Made by a program: the position numbers and the translations under genes
In this document: in pieces, positions 3,587 to 7,978 of the stretch
Layout: every line of letters starts with the position of its first letter
Numbering within the stretch: position 1 is the stretch's first letter
Assembly: GCA_018649665.1 (NCBI GenBank)
Contig: JABIHL010000164.1
Coordinates: forward strand, 1 to 40,878
Length of the DNA: 40,878 bases
Source of the DNA: Chloroflexota bacterium
Lineage (GTDB): Bacteria; Chloroflexota; Dehalococcoidia; Lucifugimonadales; Lucifugimonadaceae
Direction: 5' to 3'
The notes under the pieces: generated by a model
Told to the model about the DNA's origin: nothing
What the model saw: only the letters and a program-made list of their open reading frames with translations
Databases searched by the model: none

Positions 3587-3757
3587 ATCTACTAATGAGT
3601 CTCTCACAGCCTCTGTTAGCCAGCGTTAAATAACCGAGCCAACTGCCGTACCACTCGCAAGTTGTCGCAGCGAAGTTTAGTATCTCCGAATATCAGAGAC
3701 GTTCGGATGAACAAACGAACGGCGTCGCGCAATAAAACCAGACCGAAAGAGCCCAGA

Positions 3758-4930
3758 ATGACCTACGATCTCGTCATCAAAAACGGCACAGTTGTCGACC
3801 CCGCACAGGGCGTCCACGCCAAAAAAGATATTGCCGTCGCAGGCGGAAAAATAGCGGCTATCGAAGACTATGTTTCTGATGCCGACACGCACGACGTTAT
3901 CGAAGCAGAAGGACTGGTCGTTACACCCGGATTAGTCGATCTGCACGTTCACGTTTGGTGGGGAGTCGCGCATCTTGCCGTCGAAGCTGACCCCGCCTGT
4001 GTATACCGCGGGGTAACAACCGCAATCGACGCCGGATCGTCTGGTGCAAATACCATCGCTGGCTTCCACCGATACGTGATGGAGCAAGCATCAACCCGAG
4101 TACTCGCCTTCCTACACATATCAGGAATGGGTCAGCTCGACAACGACATTGGTGAGCTAGAAGACATTCGTTGGGCTCGCGTCGAAAAAGCAGTTGAAGC
4201 CGCCAAGCTTCACGCCGACCGCATCGTCGGCATCAAAGTTCGACTCACCGACAACATCGTGGGTCCTAACGATCTCGTAGCCCTAGATCGCGCGCTAGAA
4301 GCCGGTGAAGAGCTAAACAAGCCAGTGATGATCCACGTCGGCGGTTCCGTAAACCAGTTTGAACAGTTCATGGAAAAGCTTCGCCCCGGCGATATTGTTA
4401 CTCACTCGTTTACAGGGCGACCCCACGGAATACTCGACAACAACAACAAAGTCGTCGATGCCGCTTGGGACGCAATGAACAGAGGCATCATTTTCGATGT
4501 TGGGCACGGCGCTGGTTCGTTCTCGTTCCCGGTTGCGGAGGCATGCCTTGAACAAGGACTAGGACCAGGCACGGTTTCTTCAGACGTACATCGATACAAC
4601 ATTCGCGGGCCTGTTTTTGACCTCATGACCACATTGTCGAAATACATCCACCTCGGCTACTCGCTCGACGAAGCGATTGCTCTCGGTAGTTCAAAACCTG
4701 CTGCCGCTGTTGGTCTACCCGACCACATCGGCACATTGAAAGTTGGAGCCGATGCCGATATAGCGGTAATTCAACACCGAGAAGGCTCCGTGAAATTCAC
4801 CGACGCCGATGGCAATGAACGTGCAGGAAAACAGTTGCTTCTACCCGTCGAAACTCTCGCTAAAGGTCGTCGTTTCAACCCGCAACACTCAGCCCACCCA
4901 AAACTCGTAGGGCACCCACACAAGCATTGA
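3758..4930 (+). CDS. Amidohydrolase/deacetylase family metallohydrolase
   Basis: A 390-residue TIM-barrel metal hydrolase. Visible are MTYDLVIKNGTVVDPAQG (N-terminal beta domain), PGLVDLHVHVWWG (His63-x-His65 metal ligands), GIKVRLT (Lys160, expected to be carboxylated and to bridge two metals), MIHVGG, DIVTHSFTG and SSDVH (late Asp). The C-terminal beta strand is IGTLKVGADADIAV. The pattern matches the Atu3266/EF_0837-like group annotated as D-amino-acid-amide or acetyl-ester deacetylases. The start is set at the ATG at 3758, where the fold begins; an in-frame ATG at 3707 would add a basic, unconserved leader. The true substrate is unknown. A dispersed repeat follows the stop. Confidence 0.87.
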   Translation: MTYDLVIKNGTVVDPAQGVHAKKDIAVAGGKIAAIEDYVSDADTHDVIEAEGLVVTPGLVDLHVHVWWGVAHLAVEADPACVYRGVTTAIDAGSSGANTIAGFHRYVMEQASTRVLAFLHISGMGQLDNDIGELEDIRWARVEKAVEAAKLHADRIVGIKVRLTDNIVGPNDLVALDRALEAGEELNKPVMIHVGGSVNQFEQFMEKLRPGDIVTHSFTGRPHGILDNNNKVVDAAWDAMNRGIIFDVGHGAGSFSFPVAEACLEQGLGPGTVSSDVHRYNIRGPVFDLMTTLSKYIHLGYSLDEAIALGSSKPAAAVGLPDHIGTLKVGADADIAVIQHREGSVKFTDADGNERAGKQLLLPVETLAKGRRFNPQHSAHPKLVGHPHKH

Positions 4931-5003: not shown

Positions 5004-5726
5004 TTACCGCGCCTTATACGCAGCTCGTAACTCGCTCTGTTCCGGCTCTGGCAGGTACTTAACTGCCTCACGAAACGTCGTTCCGGAAATCACAGGCATG
5101 TGCCGACGCACGAACGCTGCCACCGGATCAGGTCGGATTCTTGATAAATCACGCAATACCCAACCGATTGCCTTCCGAACGAAAAATTCTTTTTCTTCGA
5201 TCATCGAATCTGCGTACGTAACAAACCGACCCCATTGGCTATCGTCGCGTCTGAGCCCGCTCATCAACACAAGCAGCGAGAACCTTCGCAACCAGAAATT
5301 ATCGTCGACACTCCATGAATCGAGTATTACGCCCACCTCAGGTAATCCACGATCAACAAGAACTGAACCTGGTTTGCTCAACGGATCTACCAACGCCCAC
5401 GTGTTACACCTTCGTATAAGGTCGGCGATAATGTTGAGATCGTCTGGCACAAGTAAATGCGAATACTTATCGAGAAGAAGTACTCCAAATAACTGCATTT
5501 CAAAATGATTCCACTCGAAACACTGAAGCGACTTTCGAAGGAGTTCTGCCCGTTCGGTTATCGGGCTTTCCGCCATCGCACGCTTCAGTGCCGCTCGAAC
5601 AACTGGAACTGAAACTCCAAAGAAATCAAGATCAGATTTCAAATAGGATTTTTGGTTCGCTGCACGAATGACGGTGCCGTCAAGACCAAACCTAAAAGCA
5701 ATTTGGCCGAGATCAATTTCAGTCAT
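5004..5726 (-). CDS. DNA alkylation repair protein (AlkD-like, HEAT repeats)
   Basis: A 240-residue all-helical protein resembling the AlkC/AlkD family of DNA glycosylases, which remove alkylated bases without flipping them. Matching stretches are QKSYLKSDLDFFGVSV near the N-terminus, CNTWALVDPLS in the middle (the family's Trp-x-Leu-Val-Asp), DDNFWLRRFSLLVLM and EKEFFVRKAIGWVLRDLS with PDPVAAFVRRH near the end. The order and length fit the family. The ATG at 5726 lies 4 bp after the stop of the upstream cyclase, so translation is probably coupled. A TTG at 5738 would overlap the cyclase. It is convergent with the metallohydrolase. Confidence 0.85.
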   Translation of the reverse strand: MTEIDLGQIAFRFGLDGTVIRAANQKSYLKSDLDFFGVSVPVVRAALKRAMAESPITERAELLRKSLQCFEWNHFEMQLFGVLLLDKYSHLLVPDDLNIIADLIRRCNTWALVDPLSKPGSVLVDRGLPEVGVILDSWSVDDNFWLRRFSLLVLMSGLRRDDSQWGRFVTYADSMIEEKEFFVRKAIGWVLRDLSRIRPDPVAAFVRRHMPVISGTTFREAVKYLPEPEQSELRAAYKAR

Positions 5727-5730
5727 AAAT

Positions 5731-6510
5731 CTAATCAAACGGCGCTATGACATGGACGCCGAATTTTTCTTCTTTGCCACGGACGTCGATATTTTGCACT
5801 GGCACGTTCGGATACTGAGTGATTATCTCACTGTAGATGCTCTCAGAAACTACGATCTGACCAGCCTTAGCCTCGCTCTGTAGCCTCGACGCCGTATTAA
5901 CGGTGTCGCCAAGTGCGGTGAAGTCGTTCACGTCGTCTGTACCGACTTTGCCGACATATGCTTTGCCATGATTGATACCGATTCCGACGGGCAACCAAGG
6001 TTCTTCGCCTGTGCCATATCCAACGCCTTTGAGAATCTTCATCGCAGCATCCATCGCTGCGTCCTGCATTGGAATTTTTGCAGCGGGCACGAAAAACGCC
6101 ATAACTTCATCACCAATCATCTTGTCGATGATCGCCCGTTTTGGAATTAGAGCGCTCATTGCGACTTCGTAGAATCGATTTAGTAGCCCAGCAAACTCGA
6201 CTGGCCCGACCTTCTCAGCGATCGTCGTAGAACCTCGCACATCGGCAAAAAGTACTGTTGTTTCGATTTCCGCACCACCGGTGGGTAATACGTCATCTCA
6301 GTAGTTACACATCTCCGGATTTTTACGAGACACTGTGCGATTTCTAAGCGCTTTCATCAGCGCCCCAGAAAGCCCATTCATCGGAACCAAACAGAATGAA
6401 CATCGGTGGCTACCCGGTAGAAGCGAAGACGGTCGATCTTCATGTCCTTCGACAAGCGTTTTACGCCATATCTCGGTGATTGCTGGATCATCATGACTAT
6501 GCAATGTCAT
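5731..6510 (-). CDS. Class III adenylate/guanylate cyclase interrupted by one in-frame TGA (possible selenocysteine or pseudogene)
   Basis: Read from the ATG at 6510 (ribosome-binding site AGGGA 5 bp upstream), the frame runs 70 codons, meets TGA at 6300-6298, then continues 188 codons in the same frame to TAG at 5731. The part before the TGA has RCSFC (Cys37, Cys40) and KNPEMCNY (Cys68). The TGA is codon 71, so it sits where the second Cys of a CxxC pair would be. After it come GGAEIETTVLFADVRGST (metal Asp90), DKMIGDEVMAFF (second metal Asp), FTALGDTVNTASRL (Asn and Arg of the transition-state site) and AKAGQIVVSESI, an intact class III cyclase domain making cAMP or cGMP. The first plausible restart is the GTG at 6240, which would lose Asp90 and so should be inactive. 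Choices are selenocysteine, readthrough, recent nonsense mutation or base error. The alkylation-repair gene follows 4 bp later. Confidence 0.75.
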
Positions 6511-6703: not shown

Positions 6704-7978
6704 ATGGCGAACAAGAACGGACGAATCGGAATTCTAGTTGGTGGCGGTCCCGCGCCAGGCATCAATAGCGTCATTTCTGCCGCAGTCATCGAAGCAGTTC
6801 ATTCCGGATACGAAGCCGTCGGCATAAAAAACGGCTACGAATATCTTGTAAAAGGCGACACTTCGCAAACAGTGAACCTCGACATCGACGACGTTGCTAC
6901 GATCCACACCCGCGGCGGTTCGATTCTTCACACCTCGCGAACGAACCCAACCAAGCGGGCTGAAGATCTCGAAACTTGTGTTGCCACTCTCAAGAAGCTC
7001 AACATCAACAACCTGATCACAATCGGTGGTGATGACACTTCATTCGGTGCGTCTGAAATTGCCCGAGCAGCACACGGCGAAATTCGAGTTGCTCACGTTC
7101 CTAAAACCATCGACAACGATCTCCCGCTCCCGGGTGGTATGCCGACGTTCGGATACGAAACCGCACGTCACGTTGGATCAGGAATCGTGATGAATCTCAA
7201 GGAAGACTCACGAACCACGAACCGTTGGTACTTCATCATCGCAATGGGTCGCCATGCAGGTCACTTAGCCCTCGGAATTGGAAAGTCGTCGGCATCGACC
7301 GTCACTCTCATCCCAGAAGAATTTCCTGGTGAAACCGTTAGCCTTTCCGAAGTTTGCGATGTCTTAGAAGGAGCAATTCTGAAGCGTCGTACTCTGGATC
7401 GACCCGACGGAATTGCAATCATCGCCGAAGGAGTCGCCAGCAAGCTCAACATCAAGGACCTTCGAAACATCTCCGGTGTCGAAATCCCCCGTGACGAATA
7501 CGGCAACATTCGACTAGCCGACCTGCCATTCGCTCGCATCTTGAGAGCCGAAGTAGAACGCCGCTTCTCCGAGCGCGGCGAAGCGATGAGCATTGTCGAT
7601 CTGACACTCGGATACGAGCTGCGATCTGCACCACCTATTCCTTTCGATATTGATTACACCCGAACACTCGGTCACGGCGCAGTTCGGTTCCTCCTCTCGG
7701 ACCCGGTAGAAAACGAAGGCACTGCTCAGGGAGCAATGATCTGTACAGTCGACAATCGGCTCCAACCCGTGCCGTTCGATGAAATGCGAGATGCAAAAAC
7801 TGGCAAGACCATCGTACGAATGGTCGACACCGACAACCTCTACTACGATGTGGCGCGTCGATACATGACTCGAATTGAACAAACCGATCTCGACGATGAA
7901 GATACCCTCGGGAAGCTCGCCGATTCCGCATCGATGCAACCCGCCGCCTTCAAAAATCGATTTGCGGTCAAGAGTTAA
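6704..7978 (+). CDS. 6-phosphofructokinase, PPi-dependent sequence type
   Basis: A 424-residue phosphofructokinase that phosphorylates fructose 6-phosphate to the 1,6-bisphosphate. The phosphoryl-donor loop reads GGDDT (108-112), with Asp111 where ATP enzymes have Gly. The catalytic loop reads PKTIDND (133-139), with Lys134 where ATP enzymes have Gly. These two residues are the known signature for pyrophosphate use. Other family parts are GILVGGGPAPGINS at the N-terminus, GGSILHTSRT, MGRHAGHLALGIG and LGYELRSAPPIPFD. The PPi type works near equilibrium and can run in glycolysis or gluconeogenesis. The ATG at 6704 has a GGGAGAG site upstream. The cytochrome maturation operon starts 14 bp after its stop, so the genes may be cotranscribed. 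Confidence 0.9.
   Translation: MANKNGRIGILVGGGPAPGINSVISAAVIEAVHSGYEAVGIKNGYEYLVKGDTSQTVNLDIDDVATIHTRGGSILHTSRTNPTKRAEDLETCVATLKKLNINNLITIGGDDTSFGASEIARAAHGEIRVAHVPKTIDNDLPLPGGMPTFGYETARHVGSGIVMNLKEDSRTTNRWYFIIAMGRHAGHLALGIGKSSASTVTLIPEEFPGETVSLSEVCDVLEGAILKRRTLDRPDGIAIIAEGVASKLNIKDLRNISGVEIPRDEYGNIRLADLPFARILRAEVERRFSERGEAMSIVDLTLGYELRSAPPIPFDIDYTRTLGHGAVRFLLSDPVENEGTAQGAMICTVDNRLQPVPFDEMRDAKTGKTIVRMVDTDNLYYDVARRYMTRIEQTDLDDEDTLGKLADSASMQPAAFKNRFAVKS

Follow-up and report, generated by a model that had tools for sequence, protein, structure and literature searches.

A conserved in-frame UGA, almost certainly read as selenocysteine, in a class III nucleotide cyclase of SAR202-clade Chloroflexota

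The cyclase gene described here is interrupted by a TGA triplet, and the question it raises is whether this codon is read as selenocysteine (Sec), is passed by occasional readthrough or marks a gene in decay. The gene lies in a window (the whole stretch of DNA analysed, 40,878 nucleotides) that is contig 49 of a 2.65-Mb draft genome of the SAR202 clade of Chloroflexota; the host and Candidatus Lucifugimonas marina fall in one genus-level group. Read on the minus strand from 6510 to 5731, the frame is M...RCSFC...KNPEMCNY*DDVLPTGGAEIETTVLFADVRGST...PFD*, with one internal stop and its true stop at the TAG at 5733-5731. Its features are as follows.

5731..6510, minus strand: class III nucleotide cyclase of 259 residues, predicted to contain Sec at position 71 (single frame; PF00211; seven intact same-TGA orthologues)
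6391..6402, minus strand: Cys37-x2-Cys40, the first pair (invariant in alignments A1 and A4; missing in subfamily C)
6307..6309, minus strand: Cys68, partner in the CxxU pair (invariant in alignments A1 and A4)
6298..6300, minus strand: UGA codon 71, putatively read as Sec (TGA in 21 genes, Cys in 36 homologues)
6241..6243, minus strand: Asp90 (FADVRG), presumed first catalytic metal ligand (invariant in the alignment)

A first-pass annotation of this DNA had described a single in-frame TGA at codon 71 (6300-6298), preceded by Cys37, Cys40 and Cys68 and followed by an intact catalytic domain and, 4 bp further on, a repair gene. The translated frame agrees with this description throughout. Residues 1-70 contain RCSFC (Cys37, Cys40) and KNPEMC (Cys68), a domain search places an intact Guanylate_cyc domain (PF00211, E 2.4e-19) directly after the TGA, and the repair gene starts at an ATG at 5726. 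That annotation had also pointed out that a restart downstream of the TGA would cost the protein a metal-binding residue; the GTG at 6240 is indeed codon 91, and restart there was rejected because Asp90 would be dropped.

The same codon is TGA in 21 cyclase genes from 19 genomes, which fall into at least four divergent groups; such a recurrence lies far outside what chance would give. It is kept in the isolate genome CP046147 (Candidatus Lucifugimonas marina JH1073), a circularly closed PacBio assembly (PMC10444878). Six further intact orthologues with 52-79% identity have TGA at codon 71 (G013, G014, G017, G004, G007 and G021), and extending the search to the order and phylum gave 14 more TGA genes. 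Those from the subfamily of the window gene are in G069, G070, G071 and, truncated, G111; a second subfamily is represented in G199 and G205 (NPNLCTVU), and a third, subfamily C, which has no first CxxC, in G071, G069, G202, G158 and G030 (KMHF...NPNICNIU). The others are in G385 and in G268 and G530. G159 and G212 contain two further partial members of subfamily C with one TGA each, the site in G159 having been read directly, and in this subfamily the TGA and its CxxU are present in all seven listed genes and the first CxxC in none. We note separately that subfamily C (L164, L172, L173, L024, L222) has a conserved SDHCLID motif near the N-terminus, and that in some members His replaces Lys130 (IVDHFLGD), with altered substrate use as a possible consequence.

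One explanation for the interrupted frame is a nonsense mutation or a sequencing error, the simplest alternative according to the first-pass annotation, or a pseudogene, with everything after the TGA being dead. Such decay does occur among relatives: the copies in the sister species G015, G009 and G018 have extra stops and frameshifts, with the TGA still kept beside these lesions where the region is present, and the gene is absent from other members of the genus. The cyclase has been lost or has decayed in several species of the genus and is therefore dispensable. A base error was nevertheless rejected, as 20 other genes, that of the closed isolate genome among them, have the same TGA, and a recent nonsense mutation was rejected because the frame is under purifying selection before as well as after the TGA. 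The seven intact orthologues give pN/pS values of 0.10-0.56 for the part before the TGA and 0.13-0.41 for the part after it, with synonymous sites near saturation, so the frame has long been translated through this codon; a dead tail would not be expected to show such values. In addition, the TGA coincides exactly with a Cys codon in several clades. With the TGA and an intact frame conserved across genera and classes, this explanation is already refuted and we give it next to no credence; the in-frame TGA is real and is neither decay nor a base error.

In 36 other homologues codon 71 is TGC or TGT, so that Cys stands at this position in the related Cys-form cyclases. The closest of these have 49-52% identity and read NPNFCNLC or NPNMCNLC; the homologues include those of two groundwater Chloroflexota in which the sequence around the codon is almost unchanged (NPNFCNLCDDRLPRGGAEID, NPNMCNLCDDILPVGGAEVD). 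The maximum-likelihood tree needs five changes between Sec and Cys, at least four of which are forced by well-supported branches, and no bootstrap tree gives a history with a single change. One genome, G017, has both a Sec form (L108/L111, C100) and a Cys paralogue (L106/L117, C30), the latter with 47% identity to the window cyclase, and these constitute a natural pair in a single genome.

If the UGA is decoded as Sec, a bacterial selenocysteine insertion element would be expected close to it, and the following feature was identified.

6267..6288, minus strand (nt 13-34 from the T of the TGA): bSECIS-type hairpin (synonymous constraint, covariation, absence in Cys homologues)

The first-pass annotation had seen here a weak stem, CCA-CCGG-TGG, and had considered it not to be a clear SECIS. 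This stem is the core of the conserved hairpin, which is of SECIS type and under selection. Its apical loop is GGU (6279-6277) at codon +7, and codons +5 to +10 (CCC ACC GGT GGT GCG GAA) have 85% synonymous identity compared with 40% over the post-TGA part, ranking top of 176 six-codon windows. On an ungapped, UGA-anchored register, used for the pair counts as MAFFT had shifted the subfamily C sequences by 8 nt, the apical GG is present in 14/14 distinct Sec sequences and the stem covaries between subfamilies, pair 19-27 being AU, GC or CG and pair 18-28 CG, GC or UG. When scored at a fixed register against synonymous shuffles, the hairpin has a mean z of -1.48 in the 21 Sec genes and -0.23 in the 36 Cys genes (Mann-Whitney p 7e-7, indicative only, as the rows are related and their independence is overstated), and no hairpin is present at the SECIS register in the 36 Cys homologues examined. 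The signal is weaker by other measures. A free hairpin scan gave a mean z of only -1.0 and single-sequence z-scores are modest; the best fold of the window's own 43-nt region is an alternative 9-bp stem with a CACC loop, more stable than the conserved hairpin; and G268 and G530 use a different stem, UUUCCUGC-CGUGGA-GCAGGAAA. In G004 (L112 4001-4786) two inner pairs are broken; this TGA form also has changed conserved residues (MIDDEV, TAPGD), and its cyclase has perhaps begun to decay.

Programmed readthrough would also be compatible with a structured element right behind the stop. Another possibility is that the UGA is a regulated stop which ordinary near-cognate tRNAs pass at a low level, the gene then yielding mostly a short zinc-binding peptide and a little full-length cyclase, without selenium. 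We regard this as very unlikely, given that the hairpin geometry fits that of a bacterial SECIS, that the position matches Cys and has TGA as the only stop seen there, and that the Sec machinery of this genome is complete and its SelD already has a UGA serving for Sec. The search for selA, selB, selC and selD found all four: SelA (529 bits), SelB (320 bits), a tRNA-Sec with a TCA anticodon, and SelD (366 bits), which is itself a selenoprotein with an in-frame TGA (G000:C168:19179-20105, L175; CAGUAGK), followed at 32 nt by a clear hairpin with a GGU loop, and thus provides an internal control for UGA as Sec in this genome. SelA is found in 15 of the 19 Sec-form genomes, the four without it being drafts of 56-90% completeness. 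It is also found in 21 of 28 Cys-only genomes, and because it is so widespread its presence is a necessary but non-discriminating check. The presence of tRNA-Sec(UCA) and SelB also speaks against a reassignment of UGA to Cys or Trp in this genome, for which no supporting evidence was found. Reassignment was rejected on the normal TGA stops in the window, where TGA terminates 5 of 27 long open reading frames and another stop follows within 1-43 codons, and its likelihood is negligible.

The Sec reading of the TGA is therefore the one favoured by every check that could be run, including those on the residue in related cyclases and on the codon in other species. In the absence of selenium-incorporation or readthrough data, the comparison of sequences gives strong support to the conclusion that codon 71 is almost certainly decoded as Sec. 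We propose that SelB and tRNA-Sec(UCA) would decode this UGA and that the hairpin immediately following it, with its GG-starting apical loop at codon +7, would direct the decoding. With high confidence, we consider the product to be a selenoprotein, a small soluble cyclase with a CxxC...CxxU module.

The genes around the cyclase are the following.

5004..5726, minus strand: AlkD-like DNA alkylation repair gene (PF08713; adjacent in G013, G014, G017 and G004)
6704..7978, plus strand: divergent phosphofructokinase gene, a conserved flank (PF00365; synteny)
3662..4930, plus strand: amidohydrolase gene, a conserved flank (PF01979/PF07969; synteny)

The grouping of phosphofructokinase, cyclase, AlkD and amidohydrolase is kept within the genus; outside it, none of these three neighbours was found near the cyclase. 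The AlkD-like gene and the cyclase are probably in the same operon. AlkD is missing or a remnant where the cyclase has decayed (G015, G009, G018 and G012; relatives L121, L021, L023 and L025), which suggests that the two share an operon and were lost together. There are exceptions to this link, as G007 keeps the cyclase without AlkD. A coupled alkylation-repair gene would fit a role in the stress response, yet the coupling is genus-specific.

As to the enzyme, the product is a class III nucleotide cyclase, IIIb-like and probably an adenylate cyclase, although there are no enzyme-activity data. The nearest solved structures are the class IIIb CyaC (1wc1) and Pseudomonas aeruginosa CyaB (3r5g). 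Asp90, Asp134, Lys130, Thr198 and Asn205 are invariant in alignment A1, and Arg209 is nearly so, being His in L. marina (NTAAHLQ; L110 4001-4777, CP046147). We take Asp90 and Asp134 to be the metal-binding aspartates, Lys130 a substrate residue, and Asn205 and Arg209 the transition-state residues; the Lys and Thr pair presumably indicates a IIIb adenylate cyclase, possibly responsive to bicarbonate.

The role of the Sec residue is less settled. The CxxC...CxxU module runs straight into the first catalytic-domain strand, and an AlphaFold model (pLDDT 90) has Cys68 and Sec71 at the beginning of a short helix (69-74) that leads up to this strand, where they are predicted to be well placed to influence the metal site. 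We propose that Cys68 and Sec71 may be redox-reactive as a pair, with reversible oxidation to a selenenylsulfide, or may alternatively, where the first CxxC is kept, belong to a redox-labile metal site. The state of the pair would then set cyclase activity and tie cyclic-nucleotide signalling to redox stress. A different explanation gives Sec71 a mainly structural role, as a zinc ligand in a four-residue CxxC/CxxU knuckle, with Sec kept by drift and no part in redox sensing. All four sulphur or selenium positions (CxxC and CxxU/C) are kept in the window gene and most of its relatives, most Sec forms among them, and in treble-clef-like zinc sites the second pair begins a helix, as the model has it here. 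On the other side, all seven subfamily C genes have CxxU although the first CxxC is gone, Sec is a costly residue that mostly serves in catalysis or redox reactions, and the sequence and fold matches in the PDB start at the catalytic domain, so that there is no solved template for the knuckle. The Sec subfamily without the first CxxC shows, as far as alignments alone can tell, that a four-ligand zinc site would not be obligatory; this subfamily does have a further conserved Cys and a His as potential metal ligands. The structural zinc site therefore stays a tenable, if less probable, reading. Subfamily C leads us to prefer the redox pair to a zinc site in which all four ligands are obligatory, and both remain possible. 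The fuller proposal is that in SAR202 and the Chloroflexota related to it the cyclase is gated directly by Cys68-Sec71 as a selenium-dependent redox switch, and that Sec has repeatedly been gained or lost at this residue; we would give it about even credence.

The latest inventory that could be consulted, of 119 prokaryotic selenoprotein families, includes no cyclase, and few of its families are regulatory, the FmdB-type being listed (PMC13188914). No NCBIfam selenoprotein model matches the cyclase, there being no such model, and searches of the open-licence literature yielded nothing relevant on a cyclase selenoprotein or on SAR202 selenoproteins. Within the limits of that literature, the cyclase is apparently an undescribed selenoprotein family. 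Under standard annotation these genes would end at codon 70 or be given a late start, and such a family is easily missed. If the proposed redox switch is correct, no selenoprotein nucleotide cyclase would have been known before this one, and cAMP/cGMP signalling would be coupled directly to redox or selenium status. Known selenoproteins are for the most part redox enzymes or metabolic catalysts, and a cyclase among them would carry the use of Sec into signal synthesis. The repeated exchange of Sec and Cys at a single regulatory residue would offer natural pairs for assessing what Sec contributes in an aerobic organism. The group to which the host belongs is abundant in deep-ocean waters and one of its members has been cultured, which makes the claim directly testable.

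Comparison with known systems separates what is shared from what is particular to this protein. CyaC and CyaB match it in catalytic fold (Foldseek E 1e-15; profile E 8e-29) and the equivalents of Lys130 and Thr198 (window numbering) at the substrate positions, but they are only about 26-29% identical and have no Cys/Sec module. The four-Cys class III cyclases of Chloroflexota, the nearest at 43-52% identity, do share the CxxC...NPxxCxxC module together with the catalytic domain; they differ in having Cys for Sec and no hairpin in the SECIS register. The CxxU redox selenoproteins (AhpD-like, GrdA and SelW-like; PMC13188914), none of which is a cyclase, have the same CxxU motif and the same exchange of UGA and Cys between homologues. 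Finally, the SECIS of Escherichia coli fdhF belongs to an unrelated enzyme and has a different stem sequence, but like the hairpin of the window gene it directly follows its UGA and has GGU at codon +7.
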